This document shows positions 6,056-64,000 of a DNA stretch of 64,000 nt, piece by piece. The stretch lies in the NCBI GenBank assembly GCA_028386065.3, contig JAKUCV010002511.1, positions 39,024 through 103,023 on the forward strand. Reading direction: 5' to 3'. Made by a program: the position numbers and the translations under genes. The notes under the pieces were generated by a model. The model was not told where the DNA came from and ran no database searches. It was given only the letters and a program-made list of their open reading frames with translations. Numbering within the stretch: position 1 is the first letter of the stretch; the number at the start of each line of letters is the position of its first letter. The stretch comes from Turnera subulata. Its lineage: Eukaryota > Streptophyta > Magnoliopsida > Malpighiales > Passifloraceae.

Positions 6056-7531
6056 TGTTAGTGTAATATACCCAAAAGCCAATCAATGGATGTTTATTTG
6101 TAATCATGTATACACATTAAGGTTATTCCAATAAATATCGTTTATGAGATAAACGCTTGCACATATTTATAACCCTAGAATATTTATATATTCTTAAATG
6201 TCCCTAGTTGATTATTATTATGGATGGGTTGTAGTAATAAATTAAGACTAGCGTATGTTGAGAATTATATGTGATACGAATTCTACATACGGGTACAAGT
6301 TAGAGAACTTGTGGACTGAACCGACCCACATAAGAACGCTACATGGAACGTTATATGATTGTCATTAGCGGTTCTTATATGTATTGTCCTTAGACCTGTG
6401 ATCATCAAGGTTCCCAACATATGAGTCGTATACTTTGATATTACTCTTTGCTATTTCGTAAATGAGTAGACTTAGTGTAATCATTGGGTATATGATAAAT
6501 GTGTAGTGGGTTTTGTATGATCCAGAGGGGATTTGTCCAACCCATATAATGGGTATATTATCGGATGGTTTCTTGATAGAGTTGAACTGTAAATGCACGG
6601 TCGTGCTCGGATTATGATATGGTGATATCATTAGTATCCGTTTTACACAGTTAGCTCGAAGATCAAGAAACCGAGAATAAATATATGCGAGATTGACATA
6701 TTCCATGTCTCGTGTTTAATCTTGATAATGGGACGAAGGGGCGATGACATGTTTCCGAGGCATATTGAATCAGTACTGATCTTGTCGTTCGGGTAGCAAT
6801 GATGGGTTGCTAGACGCCGCTCTTTGCTTATAATTGCAAATGCGTTTACAATTATTGCCGGACGTTACAAGTGCCTACAGGGTCACACACTTAGAATCGT
6901 TGATTCGAGCAGGTGGTTGAACTGTGGTAGGACCAGGGTCGTTTTGGGCTGGTTTGATACAATAATTATCAGAATTATTGAGCCAAACCTGATTGCTTAT
7001 GATGTGTAATCCCATTACTGCTTAGTGGTAGACAAGATAATGGGTATCTTAATCATGATGGGCCATTATGTTGGCCATTTCCCTAAGCACTAATTGAGTG
7101 GCATAATTAGATTATGCTTTGGGTTTTTCTGGCTGATTGCATTATGGTTTTTGAGAGCCTTGAGAGTGTGTTTTCAGACCTGTAAGAACACACACAAACA
7201 CTCACCCATTCTTTAAGAAAGAAAGTAACACCACATAGCTCCCGGAAATCCGTTGCTAGCACCACGGTTCGGGAGTGCTTGGGTTGGAGATCGTGAGACG
7301 TTTTCCGGCTGTGATCGACGGTTCGTGTGGATACCGTAGAGGAGCAGGATATCCTTTCGGCTCTAGCTGATTCAGTTCATCAGTTGGGTGAAAGACCTCA
7401 ACCGTTTCAGGTATGTTCGTTTTTGTTATTCGGTTTAGCTACCCTTCACTTAGATCCTCCATGTGTATCCGGTTTTTCCGCTGCGTATGTTATTGCTTTT
7501 GATTGTCAATTACCATGCCCGAATACTTACA
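6056..7531 (+). repeat. 5' LTR of Copia-A
   Basis: It matches 12909-14421. It is about 37 bp shorter, mainly because the GGTTGGACC-type minisatellite is reduced (6913-6940 here, 13767-13830 in the 3' LTR). It ends ACTTACA at the PBS. The reverse-strand open frame at 6365-6706 recurs in every LTR of this family and reflects LTR similarity, not a gene. Confidence 0.88.
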
Positions 7532-7532
7532 G

Positions 7533-7546
7533 TGGTAGCGGAGCCT
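7533..7546 (+). other. Probable primer-binding site of Copia-A
   Basis: TGGTAGCGGAGCCT follows the LTR end by one base. It resembles the initiator-tRNA-Met complement TGGTATCAGAGCC at 10 of 13 positions. The same sequence follows the LTR of Copia-B (44147), so it is family-specific rather than decayed. Confidence 0.55.
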
Positions 7547-7831
7547 CTTGTGAAGTTCTAAACCGAATTATGTGTTCATATGCTATATGTGATATAGTAT
7601 GAACATGCTAGTATATGTGATATGCTGAATTCATTTGTATATGTGATGTGCTAAATAAGTTATTGAACATGTTGATGTTATGTTTTTGTCAAAAGTGTTT
7701 TGACAAAAAGAACTTGATTGGTATGTGATATCAATCAAGGTGTTATTGGCAGTAAGTCGAAGAGTTCGACTCAGAAAAATCGATTGTCGGTTTGTGTGTG
7801 GAACGATTGTCATTCTAGCACATCACGGCCA

Positions 7832-8369
7832 GAACATCGATGTTCATCAGATGAACATCGATGTCATCATGGGTTTAGCCTTGGCCGAGCCTACTGAACA
7901 TCGATGTTATGTGACAAAACATCGATGTTCTATAAAGGTTGGCCTTGGCAGATTCCCATGAACATCGATGTCCAAGCGTTCTGCCGAATTGATTTGAGAT
8001 TCCAGAATTCTTAAACATTGATGTTTAAGTCGAAACATCGATGTTCTTGAGTTCTAGAACCTCAAACATTGATGTTTAAATGTTATACATCGATGTTTAA
8101 AACTACTGCCAAGTTTTTGGACGTTTGGAACCTTCCAACATCGATGTTCAAGAACCTAACATCGATGTTCTTGAGCTCTGCCAATTAGTCTGGAACTCCA
8201 GAGCCTCAGAACATCGATATTCAGATCAAGACATCGATGTTCTTGAGTTCCAGAGGCCATTAGACATCGATGTTCAAGCTAGGACATCGATGTTCATGAG
8301 CAATGCCAAGTGGTTGGCGAGAATCAGATTCTCACAACATCGATATTCACTATTAGACATCGATGTTCA
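7832..8369 (+). repeat. Array of paired 12-bp palindromes in the Copia-A leader
   Basis: About 17 copies of AACATCGATGTT or one-to-two-base variants (AACATTGATGTT, GACATCGATGTT, AACATCGATATT) lie in 538 bp. Most form pairs about 20 bp apart, and pairs recur about every 60-75 bp with similar spacers (TTCTTGAGTTCC...). Each copy is a perfect or near-perfect dyad around the ATCGAT core. The array lies between PBS and gag. Copia-B has the same arrangement at 44448-44943. Short open frames here encode repeats such as NIDV or EHRCS and are shadows. Confidence 0.9.
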
Positions 8370-8939
8370 CTTGTAATTTTGGTTTCCAAATTTACAAACA
8401 TCAATATATGATTCATCAAGAACATGCATGTAATGTATTGGAATAATATGTTGATGAAAATATTAAGTTCTTCTTGTGTTGCCTTCCATGATAAGCACTC
8501 ATCATTGCTTAGATCAACACTTGGTAGGTTTTGCCAAAGCAAGGTGCGAATGTTTATCCTAGGAAGGTGCGACGCGATAATTGTAATATCGGAACTGCTT
8601 ATTATGGTGTTGAACTTAACTAGGTCATCTTAATAGGATTAAGGACTTAGAGGCAAGGAGTTGAGCTAAGTCTATGAGATAGACAAGAACAAGTGTTGTT
8701 CACTCAACTATCCAAGAGTTACATGAGATGTAATTGACAAGAGTTGTCTACCTAAATAACTAAATGAAGTAAGCGATCAACCAAAGCTGACTTATCTAGT
8801 AGTGAAATATGGATCTTGGCCTACTTATATGATTGTCTTGATTTATATAGTAGGAGCATCATTTAATAGAATTCCTTGTTAAATGATTTTGTATGCATGA
8901 CTCTTATTTGTGTGAGTTGATCATTGTTGTAGAATTTCC
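8370..8939 (+). other. Rest of the Copia-A leader, no gene seen
   Basis: About 570 bp of AT-rich sequence shared with Copia-B (44945-45586) between the palindrome array and gag. I see no ORF or strong structure in it. The 7547-7831 stretch before the array is likewise plain leader sequence. Confidence 0.6.
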
Positions 8940-11900
8940 ATGGCACAAAACACTAGCACAATGTCACTGTGATATGTCCTTGAGAAGGAAAATTTGAATG
9001 GGAATAACTTCCTAAAATGGTATCGCAACTAGAGGATAGTCCTCAAACAAGAAAAGAAGTTGCATGTCCTCGAAGGGCCTGTTCTGAATGAACCGACGCC
9101 TAGTGCTCCAAGGGCAGAAAGGGATGCTTACAAGAAGCACCTTGATGATGCATTAGATGCAGCATGCCTTATGCTTGTTAACATGGACTCTGAGCTTCAG
9201 AAGCAACATAAGAACTTAGGTGCATTCGATATGATCGAACATCTGAAAATGCTTTTTGAAGAGCAAGCTAGGCATGAGAGGTATGAGACCTTTAAGGCAT
9301 TGTTCCAATGCGAGATGGCTGAGTCATCATCGGTGAGACCTCATGTGCTCAAAATGATTGGATACATTGAGAGCCTTGAGGGTCTAGGTTTTTCTTTGCA
9401 AAAGGAGTTGGCTGTTGATCTAGTCCTCCAATCGTTGCCGGATAGTTACAACCAATTTGTCATGAATTTCAATATGAATCATCTTGACAAATCTTTGTCT
9501 ACGTTGCTTAACATGTTAGGAACAGTTGAGCGACAAATGAAGGCAAACAAATCCAACAACAATTTGATGGTTGGAAAAGGCAAAGGAAAGGGTAAAGCCA
9601 AGATTTACAAGAAGAAGAAATGTGCCAAAAAGTTTGGTGCATGTGCATCTTCTTGTTCCCATGTGCTGAAACCCAAAGGTGGTATTGCAAAAGAAGGACA
9701 ATGTTTCCATTTCAACAAACCTGGCCATTGGAAACGTAACTGCCCTGTTTACCTTGAAGAGGTGAAGAAGCACAGGAGAAGTAAGACTTCCACTTCAGGT
9801 TTCTTCATTATAGAAGCTAATATCTCTATCTCTGCATCATGGGTATTAGATACCGGATGTGGTTCTCACATTTGTGTAAATGTGCAGGAACTGAGAAAGA
9901 GTAGGAGATTGGAAAAGGGTGAGATAGACCTGCGCGTGGGAAATGGAGCAAGAGTTGCTGCATTAGCCGTAGGAACTTACTATCTTACTTTACCGATTGG
10001 TTTTGTTTTAAAACTGAAAAATTGTTATTATGTACCTACCATAAGCAGGAATTTGATTTCTGTGTCTTGTCTTGATAAGAAAGGTTTTTCATTTGTAATA
10101 AAGGACAATTGTTGTTCTATTTATTTCAATGATGTTTATTACGGTGGTGCGTATTTAAGCAATGGTTTGTATGTTCTTAACCTAAAAACCGTAATCTATA
10201 ACGTTGATACGAAGAAGGTTAGAATGAACGATTCTAATGAAACCTGTCTTTGGAATTGTCGATTGGGCCATATAAACGAGACTCGTATATCTAAACTCTA
10301 TAAAGATGGACTTTTAGACTCATTTGATTTTGAATCATTTGAGACATGTGAGTCATGTTTGTTAGGCAAGATGACGAAGGCTCCTTTTACCGGTAAAGGT
10401 GAAAGAGCTTCGGACTTGTTAGGTCTTATACATAGTGATGTATGTGGACCGATGTCGACACAAGCTAGAGGTAGATTCCAATACTTCATTTTACATTTAC
10501 TGACGATTTCAGTAGGTATGGCTATGTGTATCTAATGAGACACAAGTCAGAGTCCTTTGAAAAGTTCAAAGAATTCAAGAATGAAGTACAGAATCAACTC
10601 GGCAAGAGCATTAAAATGCTTTGATCAGATCGAGGAGGTGAATACTTAGGCCGAGAATTTCTTGATCATCTAAAGGAGTGTGGTATAGTATCACAACTCA
10701 CTCCACCGGGTACGCCTCAATGGAACGGTGTATCCGAAAGGAGGAATAGAACCTTGTTAGACATGGTTCGTTCGATGATGAGTCAAGCTGACCTTCCTTC
10801 TTCATTTTGGGGACATGCATTATTGAGTGCTGCATTTAGACTTAACCGTGTTCCATCTAAATCCGTCGAAAAGACACCATATGAGATATGGACTGGGAGG
10901 CATCCCAATTTGCCTTTTATTAGAATTTGGGGTTGTGAGGCTTACGTGAGACGTGAAGCATCAAATAAACTCGGCCCTAAATCCGACAAATGCCTCTTTG
11001 TAGGATACCCTAAGGAAACTAAAGGGTATTATTTCTACAATCCCACCGAGCACAAAGTGTTTGTTGCTCGGACTGCTATTTTTCTAGAAAGAGAATTTAT
11101 TTCTAGAAGAATCAGTGGGAGGAAAATAGAACTCGAAGAAGTTCGAGATATTGAGGCAGAGATGGAACAAGGACAGGAACTACAAGATGTTGTGGATGAG
11201 AATCCTGTGCCTGTAACACATAGACCGCGTAGGTGGGATAGGATTCGGCATGAGCCTGAGGGATATGGATTTCTTATGACTCATACTGGAGACGTGATGC
11301 TCATAGAAGAGGATGAGCCCACTTCCTATCAGCAGGCTATTACGGGTCCGGACTCTAAGAAGTGGCTGGAAGCCATGAATTCGGAAATGGAATCCATGTA
11401 TCAAAACATGGTATGGACCTTGGTTGATCCACCTGAAGGGGTAAAACCCATAGGGTGCAAGTGGGTCTTTAAGAAAAAGACCGACATGGATGGTAATGTG
11501 ATTACCTATAAAGAGCGATTGGTGGCGAAAGGTTTCAAGCAAGTTCATGGTATTGACTATGATGAAACTTTCTCACCAGTTGCCATGATTAAATCCATCC
11601 GGATTCTATTGGCTATAGCGGCATACTATGATTATGAGATATGGCAAATGGATGTCAAAATCGCTTTCCTTAACGGAAATCTTTTAGAGGATGTGTACAT
11701 GACACAACCTGAAGGTTTTGTCGATCCAGAGAATGCCAATATGGTATGCAAGTTGCAAAGATCCATTTATGGATTAAAGCAAGCTTCTAGGAGGTGGAAT
11801 CTTCGTTTTAATTAAGTGATCAAAGAGTTTGGTTTCATTAAGAACGAAGATGAACCATATGTTTACAAGAAGATTAGTGGGAGCATTATTGTTTTCTTGT

Positions 11901-12837
11901 TGTTGTATGTTGACGACATCCTACTTATTGGGAATGACATTCCAACACTACAGTCTGTAAAGGCTTGGTTAGGGAAGAATTTCTCAATGAAGGACTTAGG
12001 AGATGCAGCCTATGTGTTAGGCATAAAGATCTATAGAGATAGATCCAAAAGGCTTCTCGGGCTAAGTCAAAGTACATATATTGACAAGGTGCTAAAGAGG
12101 TTTAGCATGCAAGACTCCAAGAAAGGATTCTTGCCCTTGTCACATGGCATATCTCTCTCAAAGAATCAGTGTCCTAGTACGACTAAGGAGAGAGACGGAT
12201 GAGTAAGATTCCTTATGCTTCTGCAATAGGATCTATCATGTATGCCATGCTATGTACTCGACCGGATGTCGCTTATGCTTTGAGTGTCACAAGCAGATAC
12301 CAAGCTGATCCCGGTGAGAGTCACTGGATAGCAATTAAAAATATCCTTAAGTACTTGAGAAGGACTAAGGATGCATTCCTGGTTTACGGAAGCGTGGATG
12401 AGCTTGTTGTAAAGGGTTACACAGATGCTAGCTTCCAAACCGATAGGGATGATTTTAGATCGCAATCAGGTTAAGTGTTTTGTCTTGGAGGTGGTGCTGT
12501 ATGCTGGAAGAGTTCAAAGCAAGAGACAGTTGCCGATTCTACAACTGAGGCTGAGTACATTGCTGCCTCAGATGCAGCGAAAGAGGCTGTTTGGTTCAAG
12601 AAGTTCGTAACTGAACTTGGGGTAGTTCCGAGTATTGAGAGTCCGATTGAGCTCTATTGTGATAACAATGGGACAATCGCACAGGCTCAGGAACCTAGAT
12701 ACCACCAAAGATCCAAACATATTCTCCGACGCTATCATCTTATTAGAGATATCATAGATAGAGGCAATGTCAGACTGTGCAGAGTTCCATATAAGAACAA
12801 AGTAGCAAATCCGTTGACTAAGCCGCTCACACAGTAG
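8940..12837 (+). pseudogene. gag-pol: Copia-A gag-pol polyprotein, degenerate
   Basis: Start taken at ATG 8940, before 11 readable codons and a TGA at 8970. Order of domains: gag (to about 9680); zinc knuckle CFHFNKPGHWKRNC with its second Cys lost; protease with LDTG (Asp-Thr-Gly at 9849-9857); GAG-pre-integrase block (LWNCRLGH, first His changed to Asn); integrase; RT with YVDD at 11906-11917; RNase H to 12837. Lesions: TGA 8970, TAG 9030, a frameshift near 10490 (two extra bases compared with Copia-B), TGA 10622, TAA 11813, a frameshift near 12195, TAA 12472. The longest open piece is 9060-10535. The protein would build and integrate virus-like particles, but this copy cannot make it. Confidence 0.9.
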
Positions 12838-12896
12838 AAGCATGATGGTCATGTTGCGTCAATTGGTATTAGAAACATGTATAATTGGCTTTAGTG

Positions 12897-12908
12897 CAAG
12901 TGGGAGAT
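12897..12908 (+). other. Polypurine tract of Copia-A
   Basis: The sequence GCAAGTGGGAGAT lies directly before the TGTTAGTG start of the 3' LTR, as expected for plus-strand priming. Confidence 0.7.
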
Positions 12909-14421
12909 TGTTAGTGTAATATGCCAAAAAGCCAATCAATGGATGTTTATTTGTAATCATGTATACACATTAAGGTTATTCCAATAAATATCGTTTATGA
13001 GATAAACGCTTGCACTTATTTATAACCCTAGAATATTTATATATTCTTAAATGTCCCTAGTCGAATATTATTATGGATGGGTTGTAATAATAAATTAAGA
13101 CTAGCGTATGTTGAGAATTATATGTGATATGAATTCTACATACGGGTACAAGTTAGAGAACTTGTGGACTGGACCGACCCACATAAGAACGCTACATGGA
13201 ACGTTATATGATTGTCATTAGCGGTTCTTATATGTATTGTCCATAGACCTGTGATCATCAAGGTTCCCAACATATGAGTCGTATACTTTGATATTACTCT
13301 TGGCTATTTCGTAAATGAGTAGACTTAGTGTAATCATTGGGTATATGATAAATGTGTAGTGGGTTTTGTATGATCCAGAGGGGATTTGTCCAACCCATAT
13401 AACGGGTATATTATCGGATGGTTTCTTGATAGAGTTGAACTGTAAATGCACGGCCGCGCTCGAATTATGATATGGTGATATCATTAGTATCCGTTTTACA
13501 CAGTTAGCTCGAGGATCAAGAAACCGAGATTAAATATATTCGAGAATGACATATTCCATGTCTCGTGTTTAATCTTGATAATGGGACGAAGGGACGATGA
13601 CATGTTTCCGAGGCATATTAAATCAGTACTGATCTTGTCGTTCGGGTAGCAATGATGTGTTGCTAGACGCCGCTCTTTGCTTATAATTGTAAATGAGTTT
13701 ACAATTATTGCCGGACGTTACAAGTGCCTACAGGGTCACACACTTAGAATCGTTGATTCGAGCAGGTGGTTGAACCGTAGTTGGACTATGGTTCGACCAG
13801 GTGTGGTTGGACCGTGGTTGGACTAGGATCGTTTTGGGCTGGTTTGATACAATAATTGTCAGAATTATTGAGCCAAACCTGATTGCTTGTGATGTGTAAT
13901 CCCATTAGTGCTTAGTGGTAGACAAGATAATGGGTATCTTAATCATGATGGGCCATTATGCTGGCCATTTCCCTAAGCACTAATTGAGTGGCATAATTAG
14001 ATTATGCTTTGGGTTTTTTTGGCTGATTGCATTCTGGTTTTTGAGAGCCTTGAGAGTGTGTTTTCAGACCTGTAAGAACACACACAAACACTCACCCATT
14101 CTTTGAGAAGGAAAGTAACACCACATAGCTCCCGGAAATTCGTAGCTAGCACCACGGTTCGTGAGTGCTTGGGTTGGAGATCGTGAGACGTTTTCCGGCT
14201 GTGATTGACGGTTCGTGTGGATACCGTAGAGGAGCAGGATATGCTTCTGGCTCTAGCTGATTCAGTTCATCAATTGGGTGAAAGACCTCAACCGTTTTAG
14301 GTATGTTCGTTTTTGTTATTCGGTTTAGCTACCCTTCACTTGGATCCTCCATGTGTATCTGGTTTTTCCGCTGCATATGTTATTGCTTTTGATTGTCAAT
14401 TAGCATGCCCAGAGACTTACA
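12909..14421 (+). repeat. 3' LTR of Copia-A
   Basis: TGTTAGTGTAAT to CTTACA, 1513 bp, followed by the TAGTT duplication. It carries the longer GGTTGGACC-type minisatellite at 13767-13830. Confidence 0.9.
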
Positions 14422-42590: not shown

Positions 42591-44145
42591 TGTTAGTGTA
42601 ATATGCCCAAAAGCCAATCAATGGATGTTTATTTGTAATCATGTATACACATAAAGGTTATTCCAATAAATATTGTTTATGAGATAAACGCTTGCACATA
42701 TTTATAACCCTAGAATATTTATATATTCTTAAATGTCCCTAGTCGATTATTATTATGGATGGGTTGTAATAATAAATTAAGACTAGCGTATGTTGGGAAT
42801 TATATGTGATATGAATTCTACATACGGGTACAAGTTAGAGAACTTGTGGACTGGACCAACCCACATAAGAACGCTACATGGAACGTTATATGATTGTCAT
42901 TAGCGGTTCTTATATGTATTGTCCTTAGACCTGTGGTCATCAAGGTTCCCAACATATGAGTCATATACTTTGATATTACTCTTGGCTATTTCGTAAATGA
43001 GTAGGCTTAGTGTAATCATTGGGTATATCATAAATGTGTAGTGGGTTTTGTATGATCCAGAGGGGATTCGTCCAACCCATATAACGGGTATATTATCGGT
43101 TGGTTTCTTGATAGAGTTGAACTGTAAATGCACGGCCGTGCTCGGATTATGATATGGTGATATCATTAGTATCCGTTTTACACAGTTAGCTCGAGGATCA
43201 AGAAACTGAGATTAAAAACATATGCGAGATTGACATATTCCATGTCTCGTGTTTAATCTTGATAATGGGACGAAGGGACGATGACATGTTTACGAGGCAT
43301 ATTGAATCAGTATTCATCTTGTCGTTCGAGTAGCAATGATGTGTTGCTAGACGCCACTCTTTGCTTATAATTGTAAATGAGTTTACAATTATTGCCATAG
43401 TTACAAGTGCCTACAGGGTCACACACTTAGAATCGTTGATTCGAGCAGGTGGTTGAACCGTGGTTGGACCATGGTTCGACCAAGTGTGGTTAGACCATAG
43501 TTGGACCGTGGTTGGACCGTGGTTGGATCAGGGTCGTTTTATGCTGGTTTGGTTCACTAATTATCTGATTTATTGAACCATAATTAGTGCCATGTGATGT
43601 GTAATCCCACCAAGAGTTAGCGGAGACATAATTAGCTAAAAGCTAATCATGTTGGCCAAAGGTGTTGGCCATTTTGTCCCTTGCTTTTGTGAGTGGGATT
43701 AGACTATGCATAATCTGATTATGCCTTGAAAATTCATCACTTTGAGTCTGAAATTTTTCAGAGCATGGAGCCTTGAGAGTGTCTTGAGAGTTCTTGTGAG
43801 TTTTAGACTATACATACCTTCTTTGAGAAAGAAGAAAATACCACAAACTCTAGCTTCTGAAACCTGCTGCTAGCACATCAGTTCGGGGGTGCTCGGGTTG
43901 GTTATTGTGTGACGGTTTCTGACTAGTCATCAGCGGTTCGTGTGGATACCGTAGAGAGGCAGGATTTCTGTCCAGCTCTTGCTGATTCGTCCCTACAGTT
44001 GGGTGAAAGACCTCAACTGATTCAGGTACGTGAAAATTGTTATTCGGTTTAGCTACCCTTCACTTGGATCCTCCATGTGTATCCGATTTTTCCGCTGCGT
44101 ATGTTATTGCATTTGATTGTCAATTTGCATGCCCGGATACTTACA
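42591..44145 (+). repeat. 5' LTR of Copia-B
   Basis: 1555 bp. It carries the longest form of the GGTTGGACC-type minisatellite (43450-43530). It is followed by the same PBS-like TGGTAGCGGAGCC as Copia-A. Confidence 0.9.
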
Positions 44146-44447: not shown

Positions 44448-44943
44448 AACATCGATGTTCATCAGATCCACATCGATGTTCACATGAAGTTTTGCCTTGG
44501 CTGAACCTTCAACACATCGATGTTGTATGACAAACATCGATGTTCTCTTGCAGAACTCTCAAAAAACATCGATGTTAAGAGTTAAACATCGATGTTATTT
44601 GAGCTCGGCCGAATTGGTTTGAAGTTCCAGAACTCATATAACATCGATGTTCAAGGTTCCAACATCGATGTTCTTGAGTTTCAGAAGTTCAAACATCGAT
44701 GTTTCAGGTCAACATCGATGTTAAAATGCTACTGCCAAAATCATGAACTTTCAGAATTCTCAAAACATCGATGTTTAAGAGTTGAACATCGATGTTCTTG
44801 AGCTACTGCCAAATAGTCTGGAGTTCAAGTTACTCAGAACATCGATGTTGAAAAGTTGAACATCGATGTTCTTGAGCCTCGGCCAAATAGTTTGGAGAAT
44901 CAGATTCTCAAAACATCGATGTTCAAGTTTAAACATCGATGTT
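44448..44943 (+). repeat. Array of paired 12-bp palindromes in the Copia-B leader
   Basis: Sixteen copies of an ACATCGATGTT core lie in 496 bp, most of them the full AACATCGATGTT. They form eight pairs, with spacers such as TCTTGAG and CTGCCAA between pairs. The array is cleaner than in Copia-A, whose copies have more single changes. Confidence 0.92.
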
Positions 44944-45077: not shown

Positions 45078-45222
45078 TCATTGCTTAGATCAACACTTGG
45101 TAGGTTTTGCCAAAGCAAGGTGCCAATGTTTATCCTAGCAAGGTGCGACNTCATTGCTTAGATCAACACTTGGTAGGTTTTGCCAAAGCAAGGTGCCAAT
45201 GTTTATCCTAGCAAGGTGCGAC
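45078..45222 (+). other. Exact 72-bp duplication around a single N (probable assembly join)
   Basis: 45078-45149 and 45151-45222 are identical, separated only by N at 45150. Copia-A has one copy at the equivalent place. This is the pattern of two contig ends joined without removing their overlap. Confidence 0.85.
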
Positions 45223-48500: not shown

Positions 48501-49524
48501 GTGTTTACAAGAAGTTTAGTGGGAGCATTATTGTTTTCTTGTTGTTGTATGTTGACGACATCCTACTCATTGGGAATGACATTCCGACACTACAGTCTGT
48601 AAAGGCTTGGTTAGGGAAGAATTGGTTAGGAGAAGCAGCCTATGTGTTAGGCATAAAGATCTATAGAGATAGATCCAAAAGGCTTCTCGGGCTAAGTCAG
48701 AGTACAATATTGACAAGGTACTAAAGAGGTTTAGCATGCAAGATTCCAAAAAAGGATTCTTGCCCTTGTCACATGGCGTAGCTCTCTCAAAGAATCAATG
48801 TCCTAGTACGACTAAAGAGAGAGAGCGGATGAGTAAGATTCCTTGTGCTTCTGCAATAGGATCTATCTTGTGTGCCATTCTATGTACTCGACCGGATGTC
48901 GCTTATGCTTTGAGTGTCATAAGCAGAAATCAAGCTGATCGCGGTGAGAGTCACTGGACAGCGGTTAAGAACGTCCTTAAGTACTTGAGAAGGACTAAGG
49001 ATGCATTCCTGGTTTACAGAAGCGTGGATGAGCTTTTTGTAAAGGGCTACACATATGCTAGCTTCCAAACCGATAGGGATGATTTTAGATCGCAGTCAGG
49101 TTATGTGTTTTGTCTTGGAGGTGGTGCTGTATGCTGGAAGAGTTCAAAGCAAGAGAAAGTTGCCGATTCTACAACCGAGGCTGAGCACATTGCTGCCTCA
49201 GATGCGGCGAAAGAGGCTGTTTGGATCAAGAAGTTCGTAACTGAACTTGGGGTAGTTCCGAGCATTGAGAGTCCAATTGAGCTCTATTGTGATAACAATG
49301 GGACAATTGCACAGGCTCAGGAACCTAGATACCACCAGAGATCCAAACATATTCTCCGACGCTATCATTTTATTAGAGAGATCATAGATAGAGGCGATGT
49401 CAGACTATGCAGAGTTCCATCTGAGAACAATGTAGCAGATCCGTTGACTAAGCCGATCACACAGCAGAAGCATGATGGTCACGCTGCGTCCATTGGTATT
49501 AGATACATGTATGATTGGCTTTAG
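45587..49524 (+). pseudogene. gag-pol: Copia-B gag-pol polyprotein, degenerate
   Basis: The start ATG used in Copia-A is TTG here (45587), so initiation is doubtful; the next ATG is 45608. Domains: gag to about 46360 with the zinc knuckle broken (CFHSNKPGY then TAG 46376); protease with TGA in place of the active-site Gly codon (46502-46504); a deletion and frame change near 46690-46760; GAG-pre-integrase (LWHCRLGH) and integrase 46790-47341 with TAG 47339; a deletion near 47530; RT with a 65-bp foreign piece at 48074-48138; YVDD 48548-48559; a deletion and frame change near 48625-48720; RNase H to 49524. It cannot make a full polyprotein. Confidence 0.9.
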
Positions 49525-49538
49525 TGCAAGTGGGATAT

Positions 49539-51071
49539 TGTTAGTGTAATATGCCCAAAAGCCAATCAATGGATGTTTATTTGTAATCATGTATACACAT
49601 TAAGGTTATTCTAATAAATATTGTTTATGAGAAAAACCCTTGCACATATTTATAACCCTAGAATATTTATATATTCTTAAATGTCCCTAGTCGATTATTA
49701 TTATGGATGGGTTGTAATAATAAATTAAGACTAGTGTATGTTGGGAATTATATGTGATATGAATTCTACATACGGGTACAAGTTAGAGAACTTGGGGTCT
49801 GGACCGGCCCACATAAGAACGCTACATGGAACGTTATATGATTGTCATTAGCGGTTCTTATATGTATTGTTCTTAGACCTGTGGTCATCAAGGTTCCCAA
49901 CATATGAGTCGTATACTTTGATATTACTCTTGACTATTTCGTAAATGAGTAGACTTAGTGTAATCATTGGGTATATGATAATTGTGTAGTGGGTTTTGTA
50001 TGATCCAGAGGGGATTCGTCCAACCCATATAACGGGTATATTATCGGTTGGTTTCTTGATAGAGTTGAACTGTAAATGCACGGTCGTGCTCGGATTATGA
50101 TATGGTGATATCATTAGTATCCGTTTTGCACAGTTAGCTCGAGGATCAAGAAACCCGAGAATAAACATATGCGAGATTGACATATTCTATGTCTCGTGTT
50201 TAGTCTTGATAATGGGACGAAGGGACGATGACATGTTTACGAGGCATATTGAATCAGTACTGATCTTGTCGTTCGGGTAGCAATGATGTGTTGCTAGACG
50301 TCGCTCTTTGCTTATAATTGTAAATGAGTTTACAATTATTACCGGACGTTACAAGTGCCTACAGGATCACACAATTAGAATCGTTGATTCGAGCAGGTGG
50401 TTGAACCGTGGTTGGACCATGGTTCGACCAAGTGTGGTTGGACCGTGGTTGGATCAGGGTCGTTTTGGGCTGGTTTGGTTCACTAAATGTCTGATTTATT
50501 GAACCATAATTAGTACCAAGTGATGTGTAATCCCACCAAGAGTTAGTGGAGACGTAATTAGCTAAAAGCTAATCATGTTGGCCAAAGGTGTTGGCCACTT
50601 TGTCCCTTGCTTTTGTGAGTGGGATTAGACTAAGCATAATATGATTATGCCTTGAAAATTCATCACTTTAAGTCTGAAAATTTTCAGAGCATTGAGCCTT
50701 GAGAGTGTCTTGAGAGTTCTTGTGAGTTTTAGACTATACACACCTTCTTTGAGAAAGAAGAAAATACCACAAACTCTAGCTTCCGAAACCTGCTGCTAGC
50801 ACATCAGTTTAGGGGTGCTCGGGTTGGTTATCGTGTGACGGTTTCTGACTAGTCATTGACGGTTCGTGTGGATACCATAGAGGGGCGGGATTTTTGTCCG
50901 GCTCTTGCTGATTCGTCCCTACAGTTGGGTGAAAGACCTCAACCGATTCAGGTACGTAAAAATTGTTATTCGGTTTAGCTACCCTTCACTTGGTTCCTCC
51001 ATGTGTATCCGGTTTTTCCGCTGTGTACGTTATTGCATTTGATTATCAATTTTCATGCCCGGATACTTACA
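49539..51071 (+). repeat. 3' LTR of Copia-B
   Basis: 1533 bp from TGTTAGTG to CTTACA, preceded by the PPT GCAAGTGGGATAT (49526-49538). The minisatellite at 50399-50460 is shorter than in its 5' LTR. Confidence 0.9.
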
Positions 51072-53156: not shown

Positions 53157-54770
53157 GGGGCATGCAACCCCGTTGTTTTGACTTTATTTCCCGGGCATGT
53201 TATCCCACTATTCTGAATGAGTTTTCCAGGGCATGACACCCTGCTATGAGATTTGTTTAAATTTTTCGAGGTCATACTACCCCTTAATATGATTTGTTTT
53301 TGTTGGCATGCTACCCCATTTGTACGTGTTTTGGTTTCCTATTGATCTCTCCGAGGCATGCTGCCCCATTCATTTGATTTGATTTTCGGGACATGCTACC
53401 CATGATATGATTGACCCTTTTCAGGGCATGCTACCATGACTGTTTGGTTTGTTCTTTTTCGGGGCATGCTACCCAATTTGTTATTCGATTTTCTAGGGCA
53501 TGCTACCCCACATTTTGAGTTGAATTTTTCGGGGCATACTACCCCATGTTTTGAGTCAAGTATTTCGGGGCATGCTACCCCATCCAATTTTTCAGGGCAC
53601 GCTACCCCACGTTTTAAGATTGAGTTTCTCGGGTAGCATTTTTTTGATTTTCGGGGCATGCTACCTCATGATTTGATTGATATTTTCTGGGGCATGCTAC
53701 CCCAATTGTTCGGTTTTTTCTCTGGGACATGCTATCCCATTTGTGAGTCAATTTTTCAGAGCATGCTACCCCTTAATTTGTTTTGAGTCTTGAATTAATT
53801 TCCCATGGCATGCTACCCTATTGGTTTGAAACATTTTCCCGTGCCATGCTACCCCGTTAAGTGACATGTTTTATTTCCCGGGCATGCTACTCCATTATGT
53901 GTTTCGTTTCCCAGGACATGCTACCCCTCGTATGTGTTTTGTTTTCCCGGAGTATACTACCCCATTTGTGCATGTTTGCTTTTTCGGGGCATGCTACCCC
54001 ATTTGTTTGGAGCGTTTTCCCGGGGCATGCTACCTTATTTGTGAGTCAATTTCCCGGGGCATGCTACCTTTCGATTTGTTTTGAGTTTTGAATTAGTTTA
54101 AGACATTTTCCCGGGGCATGCTACCCCGTTATGTTATGTGTTTTGTTTCCCGGGATATACTACCCCGTTATATGATGTGTTCTATTTCCTTGGCAAGCTA
54201 CCCCATTACTTGCTGTATTTGTTTCCCGGGACAAGCTACCCCGTTACATGATGTGTTTGTTTCTTGGGGCATGCTACCCCGATATGTGATATGTTTTCGG
54301 GGCATGTTACCCCGGTCGTTTTGTGATTTCCCGGGGCATGTTACCCTTTTGTATATGTTCTGCTCTATTGGGGCATGCTACCCCTTGATATGTTTCAATT
54401 TCCGGGGCATGTTACCCCCATTTCTTCAAACAACGATTTTCGGGGCATGCTACCCCATGCAATGGTTTTCCCGGGGCATGCTACCCCATGTGACTTACCT
54501 GGGGCATGCGACCCCGTTTTGAATCAATTTCTGGGCATGCTACCCTATTCATTCAAGAATGATTTCCGGGGCATACTACCCCATGTATTAATTTTCCCGG
54601 GGCATGCTACCCCATGTGTCGATGAGACTCATTTGGGGTGTGCTACCCCGTTCTAGATCAATCCATGGGACATGCTACCCCGTTCTAAATCAAATTCCCA
54701 GGGCATGAAACCCCATTGCTAGAGATGACTATCTTTGGGGCATGCTTCCCCAAAGGGCATGTAATGCCCT
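53157..54770 (+). repeat. 1.6-kb array of about 46 GGGGCATGCTACCCC-like units in G0
   Basis: A 15-bp motif GGGGCATGCTACCCC or close variants (CATACTAC, CATGTTAC, CAAGCTAC) recurs every 27-50 bp, mean about 35 bp. The spacers vary in sequence and length (T-rich, e.g. TTTGTTTTGAGT). The motif is nearly dyad-symmetric (GGGG...CCCC). Short frames on both strands encode repeats such as FPGHATP, RGMLP and VACPEK and are shadows. Known: the 3' untranslated region of Tat elements is prone to carry tandem repeats that can seed satellites. Confidence 0.92.
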
Positions 54771-58018: not shown

Positions 58019-59561
58019 TGTAAGTAACTAGGCATGCAAACTTGACAATCAAATGCAGTGGAAAAACCCAGAAACCATGGAGCATCCAAGTGAAAGTAAC
58101 TAAACCGAATAACAATTTTTGCGTACCTGAATCGGTTGAGTTCTTTCACTCAACTGTTGTGCCGAATCAGCTAGAGCCGGAAAGAAATCCCACTCCTCTA
58201 CGGTATCCACACGAACCGTCGATCTCTGGTCGAAAAACATCTCAAGATCTCCAACCCGAGCACTCCTGAACCGTTGTGCTAGCTACGGATTTCCGAGAGC
58301 TATGTGGTGTTTCTTTCTTTCTCAAAGAATGGGTGTGTAATCTGAATTGTGTGTGAATGTTGTGTGTGTTGATAATCAGATCATCAAGCCCTATTTATAC
58401 ACACAATTAATGCATAGATTAATGAGACAATGGCCAACATTATCATGCATTAACCACCATGATTATACTTTAAGTCTAATCATGTCTCCACTATGTCTTA
58501 TTGCTCCACTAAGCATTAATGGATGCTCCACTAAGCATTAATGGGATTACACATCATATGGCATTAATTTCGGTTCAATAATTCTGATAATTAGTGAACC
58601 AAATCAGCCCAAAACGACCCGGTCCAACCATGGTCCAACCAAGGTTCAACCATGGTCCACTCACTTGGTCGAACCACGGTCCAACCATGGTTCAACCACC
58701 TGCTCGAATCAATAGTTCTAAGTGTGTGACCCTGTAGGCACTTGTATCGTTTTCCAATAATTGTAAAATCTCATTTTAAAATTATAAACAATGAGCGGTG
58801 TCTAGCAACACATCATTGCTACCCAAACGACAAGATCAGTACTGATTCAATATGCCTCGGAAGCATGTCACCATCCTTTAGTCACATTATCAAGATTAAA
58901 CACGAGACATGGAATAAGTCAATCTCGTATATGTTTAATCTAAGTTTCTTGATCCCCGAGTTAACTGTGTAAAACGGATACTAATGATATCACCATATCA
59001 CATAATCCGAGCTTGGCCATGCATTTACTGCTCAACTCTATCAAGAGGCCCAACTGATAATAAACCCGTTATATGGGTTGGACGAATTCCATCTTGATCA
59101 TACAAAACCCACTACACACTTATCATATACCCAATGATTACACTAAGGTCTACTCAGTTACGAATAGCCAAGAGTAATATCAAAGTATATGACTAACATG
59201 TTGGGAACCTTGATGATCTCAGGTCAAAGGACAATACATATAAGAACCACTAATGACAATCATATAACGTTCCATGTAGTGTTCTTATGTTGGGTCAGTC
59301 CAGACCACAAGTTCTCTAACTTGTACCCGTATGTAGAATTCATATCTCATATAATTCTCAACATACGCTAGTCTTAATTTATTATTACAACCCATCCATA
59401 ATAATAATCGACTAGGGACATTTAAGAATATAAAATATTCTAGGGTTATAAATATGTGCAAGCGTTTATCACATAAACATATTTATTGGAATAACCTTAA
59501 TGTATATACATGACTATATACAATCATCCAATGATTGGCTTTTGGGCATATTACACTAACA
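58019..59561 (-). repeat. 3' LTR of Copia-C
   Basis: Plus-strand ends TGTAAGTAACT and CACTAACA, 1543 bp, the reverse complement of the Copia-A/B LTR type. The PPT is at 59562-59574 on the minus strand (GCAAGTGGGAGAT). The minisatellite lies at 58619-58700. Confidence 0.88.
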
Positions 59562-63091: not shown

Positions 63092-64000
63092 TGTAAGTTT
63101 CCCTAGGCTATATGACATTCATATAGAAGCAAAAGGATGCAGCGGAAGACAAGGGAAACAACTAAGAACACATGTGAAGCTAGAAAACCGTATAACAATT
63201 TTCGTACCTTGTTCGGTTGAGGTCTTTCACCCAACTGCTGGAACGAATCATCTAGACCAAGACGAAGGCTGGAACGAATCAGTTAGAGCAAGAAGAAGAC
63301 CTGCTCCTCTACGGTATCCACACGAACCGTGACGGTTTGGAATCGTCCCACGAAACAAACTCGAGCTCCCCGGGCTGATGTGCTAGCAACAAAAATCGGG
63401 GCTGTGTGTGGTGTCTTTGGCTCTTCCTTTCTTTCACAAAGAAGAAGAGATGGTGGTGTATGTGTGTGGACTGAAAAACAAGCACAAGGCAGGAGAGGGG
63501 AGCAGCAAAAAACGTCCAGCAACAGCCAAACAAGGAGATGAATGATCTGATCATTCAAAACCAAGTGGAGACATAAGATAGTGCAAGTAATGGCCTACCA
63601 CCTTTGGCCCATCACCCACTAAACCATATCTTAGACAAGATAATGCTGCTCCCATCATTCTTTCCAGCACAACACACACAACATTCCACTCATGCCTGAT
63701 CAATAATTATTGATCCAAAACCGACCCTGGTTCAACCATGGTCCAACCACGGTTCAACCACGGTCCAACCATACCCGGTCCAACCATGGTCCAACCACTG
63801 TTCGACCATCTGCTCGAATCATCGGTTCTATGTGTGTGACCCTGTAGGCACTTGTAACGTCCGGCAATGATTGTAAAATCTCATTTTACAATCATAAACA
63901 AAGAGCGGCGTCTAGCAACACATCATTGCTACCCGAACGACAAGATCAGAACTGATTCACTATGCCTCGGAATATGTCACCGTCCTATCGTCCCATTATC
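63092..64000 (-). repeat. Partial LTR of a diverged copia relative, minus orientation
   Basis: It begins TGTAAGTTTCCC and contains the family blocks TCTACGGTATCCACACGAAC (63305-63324), a GGTCCAACC-type minisatellite (63725-63815) and the segment near 63840-63990 matching 58730-58880. It differs much more from the Copia-C LTR than the two LTRs of Copia-A or Copia-B differ from each other. It therefore probably belongs to a separate element inserted in the Copia-C gag. It runs off the window edge. Confidence 0.75.

Follow-up and report, generated by a model that had tools for sequence, protein, structure and literature searches.

Seventeen near-identical copies of a 12-bp palindrome, AACATCGATGTT, lie in the leader of an LTR retrotransposon of Turnera subulata, and the question raised by this locus is whether they act as DNA, as RNA or not at all. 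The window, i.e., the whole 64,000-nt stretch that was analysed (GCA_028386065.3, contig JAKUCV010002511.1, positions 39,024 to 103,023 of the forward strand), contains two LTR retrotransposons, both members of the same copia family, Copia-A. Element A, flanked on both sides by the duplication TAGTT and read on the plus strand, begins with a 5' LTR (6056–7531) that is devoid of any palindrome with up to two mismatches and ends with a 3' LTR (12909–14421) that is 94.3% identical to it. Between the LTRs lie a PBS, TGGTAGCGGAGCC, named by its position (7533–7545) and presumably of the tRNA-iMet type, and the gag start codon (ATG, 8940–8942). Pfam domains of copia gag, beta-barrel, pre-integrase, SH3-like and RT were identified in this element, the named proteins among the ten best matches to its gag were from Trifolium and Hibiscus (58–63% identity), and no extra ORF was noted among ORFs of at least 60 aa between 8900 and 12900. 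Element B, flanked by the duplication GAATG, has its 5' LTR at 42591–44145 (plus strand) and its 3' LTR at 49539–51071, with 94.1% identity between the two. Other repeats were also noted in the window. Two 73-bp units, 100% identical, occur at 45078–45222, and the single N between them at 45150 may be an assembly join. Tandem repeats of 33–38 bp around the inverted-repeat motif CGGGGCATGCTACCCC at 53455–54515 are possibly a further repeated-motif array of a different element, and 11-bp tandem repeats of GTGGTTGGACC or its complement occur at 43449–43527 and 50397–50453, both inside element B LTRs, and at 58621–58698 and 63724–63809.

The array of element A (7833–8367, plus strand) consists of eight pairs and one unpaired copy at 7961, with six exact copies of AACATCGATGTT and 11 that carry one mismatch. 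Thus, about 17 palindromes located between PBS and gag, as claimed in a reading of the sequence alone, were indeed found. The spacing given in the same reading was correct for members of a pair, which are 20–21 bp apart in all eight pairs, while the starts of neighbouring pairs were 51–73 bp apart, a wider range than the 60–75 bp proposed. The leader of element B holds a comparable array of 16 palindromes with no or one mismatch, also between PBS and gag (44448–44943, plus strand). Over the whole window, 38 matches to AACATCGATGTT with up to two mismatches were counted compared with 3.4 expected, a number reached in none of 100 shuffles, and 33 of the 38 were inside these two arrays.

The occurrence of the array in other family members was determined from the junction TTACAGTGGTAGCGGAGCC, which has 1,260 exact occurrences in the genome (629 and 631). 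The survey comprised 66 of the first 69 junction places, up to C339:137326 (30 loci plus 16 plus 20), with an array scored when at least three sites were present; C194:263 was excluded as too near a contig end, L045 and L050 each counted once despite a second junction, and L001–L004, which are overlapping copies of one place (the same as L038), were left out of all site counts. Loci L038, L075–L084, L086 and L087 carry no family label. An array followed the PBS in 58 of the 66 PBS-anchored members elsewhere in the genome (983 sites, 640 of them exact, with a median of 18 and a range of 3–26 per element). Counted from the start of the junction pattern, the array began at 276–340 nt in 42 of the 58, at 446–491 nt in 14 and at 559–562 nt in two. 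Among arrayless members, the leader was largely N in L006 and L034, and homology ended at the PBS in L007, about 150 bases farther on in L010 and after about 100 bases in L028. Three members with both flanks intact (L030, L032 and L070) also lacked the array and had at most two single sites each. In L032 and L070 its place was taken by a different repeat, whose AATTTTGTA/TACAAAATT arms are inverted and which, in L032, has a 65-bp period; L030 carried neither type of repeat. The replacing repeat was considered as an imitation of the 21-bp spacing and rejected, its inverted-repeat gaps being 26 and 38–39.

Strong constraint on the letters of the palindrome was evident from 1,048 sites (66 loci, the window, L037 and L038, with L035 and L036 left out). 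One base accounted for 98–99% of sites at each of positions 2–5 and 8–11 and for 95–97% at the CpG centre, while the outer bases were unequally kept (A1 84%, T12 92%), the flanking columns held little information and the spacers were diverged. The central CpG was kept in 91.6% of sites compared with 76% on average over 15 CpG columns in the alignment of LTR end and leader. Sites with three mismatches numbered 21 as opposed to 7.5 for control palindromes, and those with four numbered 26 as opposed to 36; with so few half-decayed sites, the contrast between 12-mer and spacer is not an artefact of the search threshold. The LTR pairs of both window elements have diverged by about 6%, from which about 3% change per copy is expected since insertion, and since the inner non-CpG positions differ by only 1–2%, the ancestral sites would have been nearly perfect. 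These findings bear on the possibility that the array is a functionless tandem repeat that happened to spread. Arrays do expand and contract, and array copies do replace one another, as such a repeat would, but near-invariant 12-mers beside diverged spacers, with few half-decayed sites between, and their recurrence upstream of an ORF in several families (see below) run counter to it; this explanation is largely refuted by the contrast of 12-mer and spacer and is regarded as highly improbable.

Compensatory change, proposed earlier as a check on pairing between copies, gave a divided answer. Within the 12-mer no compensated change was found at dyads 2–5 and one at the centre, which indicates that at dyads 2–5 the letters are kept and not symmetry alone. 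At the outermost dyad 25 G1/C12 doubles were present, and their association was rejected as compensation since a pooled odds ratio of 4.3 fell to 0.93 within arrays. Wobble asymmetry was set aside as a test of RNA selection because most changes probably arose after insertion. Covariation was, on the other hand, seen in the 3-nt arms of the 9-nt spacers that separate the members of Copia-A pairs.

Distances between sites fell into a few classes. Thus, 990 of 1,021 gaps were in the classes 18–22 (539 gaps), 30–34 (123), 41–47 (124) and 50–56 (204). When 455 unique far spacers were collapsed at 65% identity, 51 clusters resulted, for which a period of 10.5 bp gave an R of 0.62 and a phase of 0.35 bp (R peak 0.63 at 10.75), which is suggestive of spacing near whole helical turns, although the associated p of 3e-9 is too small since gap lengths are inherited. 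Genome-wide, 2,185 spacers of 10–18 nt were counted, and the 50 places listed comprised 16 of 10 nt, one of 11 nt, 33 of 18 nt (many of them one spacer repeated) and none of 12–17 nt. Spacers of 19–21 nt numbered 2,294 and those of 22–29 nt 1,654; among 50 listed places of the last class, 43 held another site inside, some at an 18-bp gap, and the other seven were of 23, 25 and, in five cases, 28 nt. The 18-bp gap was thus present in some families.

The palindrome is not confined to Copia-A. Exact AACATCGATGTT occurs 76,101 times in the 518.7-Mb genome as opposed to 63 times for the reversed control, and exact pairs with an 8–9-nt spacer 29,517 times as opposed to 15. On contig C8, arrays were found in U5 next to the PBS in two further families, neither of which gave a blastn match to element A outside the arrays. 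One is represented by a short copia element (L035) with a second copy on the other strand. The two LTR arrays of L035 (1653–1758 and 6367–6546) were seen to hold four sites in the 5' LTR and six in the 3' LTR, indicating that copy number was altered inside a single insertion or while it was being made. The second is a small element (L036) with arrays in both of its near-identical direct repeats and a DEK_C ORF in place of pol. This ORF (240 aa, acidic; G000:C8:36901–46900, 7138–7857, minus strand; DEK_C E 2.4e-10) is perhaps a captured piece of a host gene. An element on C61 carried 18 sites in U3, with about 100 bp between the last of them and a TATA box (TATAAAT) downstream, 16 sites before a 290-aa ORF and four more farther upstream, and all 34 sites of the U3 and pre-ORF arrays were exact. 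The ORF scored 39.5 bits against Pfam Transposase_32, below the 45-bit cut-off, and "env-like" as applied to it denotes place only. Four GGGGGA tracts lie in the final 140 bases before the LTR and a polyC signal, TTCACCCCCC, near the LTR end; with multiple PPTs, a polyC signal and a TATA box after the motifs, the C61 element, of which one LTR and no pol were read, appears Sirevirus-like. Far spacers were also partly shared. CTGCCAA was present in 114 of 363 unique far spacers of the Copia-A set compared with 1.2 in shuffles, in eight of 67 where the array was not tied to a Copia-A PBS compared with 0.1, and in none of 11 on C8, where two had TGCCGAA; these counts favour a common origin or a second site.

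In line with the claim that adjacent copies can form hairpins, folding predicted hairpins for the window array with a z of −14.6. Moreover, 22 of 23 arrays were more stable than the same arrays with shuffled spacers (mean z −2.7), and the arms of 9-nt spacers in a Copia-A-dominated set were complementary beyond shuffles (z 5.0, 5.1 and 6.8). Fully complementary 3-nt arms, of nine arm types, were present in 29 of 116 unique 9-nt spacers compared with 9.2 after shuffling (maximum 19 in 2,000 shuffles), and, within arrays, a G1 in the first copy tended to accompany a C12 in the second one (odds ratio 2.9, chi-square 5.2). These results are what would be expected if adjacent copies formed 12–15-bp stems that acted in translation, splicing, export or small-RNA production, and such a role would also accord with the other inverted repeat found at the same place in L032 and L070 and, as cited in the available part of PMC10760457, with the small RNAs attracted by palindrome clusters of maize Sireviruses. 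The reverse inner pairing, C12 with the next G1, was observed in no case as opposed to 7.1 expected, however, no excess of G.U was found in the 9-nt spacer arms, and 8-nt spacers paired at the outermost base only. Complementary 3-nt arms were also absent from all 68 nine-nt spacers of arrays not anchored on the Copia-A PBS (z −3.4, −0.2 and 1.1; loci plus 28 nine-nt spacers from genome-wide pairs, 8-nt and C12 (Copia-A) spacers being excluded), even though the 20–21 spacing was kept in these arrays. Spacer-arm pairing therefore seems to be particular to Copia-A and not common to all arrays, and it may reflect either selection on the RNA or self-templated repair by which near-palindromes were corrected in the course of reverse transcription. 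An RNA hairpin element is considered an unlikely explanation of the array as a whole.

A retroviral dimerisation initiation site is one self-complementary palindrome held in a hairpin loop of the leader. The palindromes of the array are likewise self-complementary and located in the leader, between PBS and gag, and the sequence-only reading had suggested accordingly that the array could be a dimerisation or packaging signal of a new kind. Palindromes would then pair between two genomic RNAs or be bound by Gag. The covarying Copia-A spacer arms would be compatible with this role, and so would a possible leader intron from CAG|GTATGT to TTGTAG| (7411–8932, plus strand), which would contain PBS and array and, if real, would confine the array to unspliced genomic RNA. 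Of 68 loci, 60 had a donor-like site ahead of the PBS, commonly by 105–119 nt, and the 25 in which a gag start was found had acceptor-like TTGTAG before gag, the query itself containing TTGTAG; since the element A leader has 53 ATGs, gag seems unlikely to be reached by direct scanning. A consensus splice donor, CAG|GTAAGT, was also noted between two palindromes in one spacer type (G000 C61:3351, C112:40672, C147:6699 and C170:144829). In contrast with the retroviral site, the array holds many 12-mers and none is flanked by a stem. Flanks of single sites were complementary at the first base only (z 5.8; −2.4 and −0.1 beyond), on which ground a kissing-loop site was rejected, and the predicted cofold dimer gain was no better than that of shuffles (−10.8 as opposed to −10.1 kcal/mol; 16 arrays, first eight sites of each). 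Furthermore, the letters are fixed although any palindrome would do, and the U3 array of the C61 element lies outside the 5' leader of genomic RNA. A signal for dimerisation or packaging is, on these grounds, quite improbable.

The other suggestion of the sequence-only reading, a cluster of sites for a dimeric DNA-binding protein, drew support from the fixed letters, the dyad symmetry, the spacing near whole turns and the recurrence of the array upstream of an ORF in several families, U3 included. The array is probably, to judge from its sequence, a cis-regulatory DNA module with many copies of one 12-bp site, of the Sirevirus repeated-motif (RM) kind. Each dyad would bind a symmetric, probably homodimeric, sequence-specific protein, and sites near 2, 3, 4 and 5 helical turns apart would set bound proteins on the same face of the DNA. 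Most likely the module would enhance or activate the element, perhaps from a position inside the possible leader intron. The array itself is shared by several LTR-retrotransposon families of this genome at U3, U5 or leader positions. Inherited gap lengths, 18-bp gaps and unequal outer bases are points against such a DNA site, and the RNA stability added by the spacers and the complementary spacer arms of Copia-A also count against it since a DNA site needs neither. The arms are left over by this explanation, as is the distance of 1.6 kb from the single TATA-like match in the element A LTR (6185) to the array downstream, which, as regards promoter nearness, counts against the explanation. A TATA-like stretch at 8843, before gag, may be a candidate for an alternative promoter.

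The same DNA-binding step, with a different purpose, would occur if a protein encoded by the element or the host bound the array and removed DNA methylation in the manner of VANC. Multiplication of a short motif in non-coding DNA, the rapid change in copy number (3–26 per element and four versus six in the LTRs of one C8 element), the wholesale replacement of the array in L032 and L070 and the retention of the central CpG would all fit such an anti-silencing target, but no extra ORF was seen in Copia-A (8900–12900), and this purpose seems improbable. More broadly, as regards DNA sites for a dimeric protein, it is tentatively proposed as a real possibility that a helically phased AACATCGATGTT cassette is selfish and has been spread by recombination among unrelated LTR lineages (U3 and linker of the Sirevirus-like element, leader of Copia-A and U5 of two families), such that one dimeric host protein or anti-silencing factor would govern thousands of elements that differ in ancestry. 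If one protein binds, different retrotransposon lineages would have a single switch in common and the host one handle on many elements, and AACATCGATGTT, with its 76,101 copies nearly letter-perfect beside diverged spacers, is a ready-made bait. No report of AACATCGATGTT or of its sharing between families was found in the available parts of the open-licence literature, and matches listed there for the 10-mer ACATCGATGT concerned unrelated subjects.

Parts of this arrangement resemble known systems, as far as the available portions of the cited papers describe them. Drosophila copia has an enhancer in its untranslated leader (Wilson 1998, as cited in PMC2829016), where chromatin proteins are also found (PMC2443393); it is likened to Copia-A by position only, a regulatory region, putative in the latter, lying in the leader behind the PBS. 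In the gypsy insulator of Drosophila, one protein has 12 binding sites within the 5' untranslated region (PMC2374998), an arrangement in an LTR element like that proposed for the array, although the gypsy sites are non-palindromic and bound by a zinc-finger protein whereas the present ones are palindromic and known from sequence. VANC acts on its motif in Arabidopsis VANDAL elements, removing DNA methylation, and its targets, like the array, are a short motif multiplied in tandem in non-coding DNA and varying between relatives; VANDALs, however, are DNA transposons that encode the binder, and the motif YAGTATTAY, unlike AACATCGATGTT, is non-palindromic (PMC5735166).

The closest precedent is, by analogy, the Sirevirus RM. 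As described in the available part of PMC2829016, RMs are 8–32 copies of a short dyad-symmetric motif with diverged flanks in non-coding DNA of copia elements, found either in LTR sequence preceding the TATA box or ahead of the env-like gene and absent from classic elements, and the binding partner of palindromic repeats in plant copia elements was left open. Copia-A itself lacked all Sirevirus marks tested. Thus, AGGGGGA tracts were absent from 12000–12908 and 48600–49538, no polyC signal was found in the last 150 bases of either 5' LTR (longest C run 3), and the junction in both window elements was CA/GTGG and not CA/ATTGG. Compared with RMs so described, the Copia-A array also differs in its position behind the PBS with no sites in the LTRs, as do the C8 arrays in their location in U5, and AACATCGATGTT is without the CGG-CCG core typical of RMs, tobacco Tnd-1 excepted; pairing at 20–21 bp and helical spacing are likewise not among the RM features described there. 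At least eight near-identical dyad-symmetric copies are nevertheless present, as in RMs (17 and 16 in the window; median 18, n=58), and the ATCGAT core of AACATCGATGTT recurs in the motif ACAATCGATTGT, which Tnd-1 carries eight times (PMC2829016). The C61 element reproduces the RM layout in that same account, with one array in U3 before the TATA box and another before an ORF that lies ahead of multiple G5A tracts.
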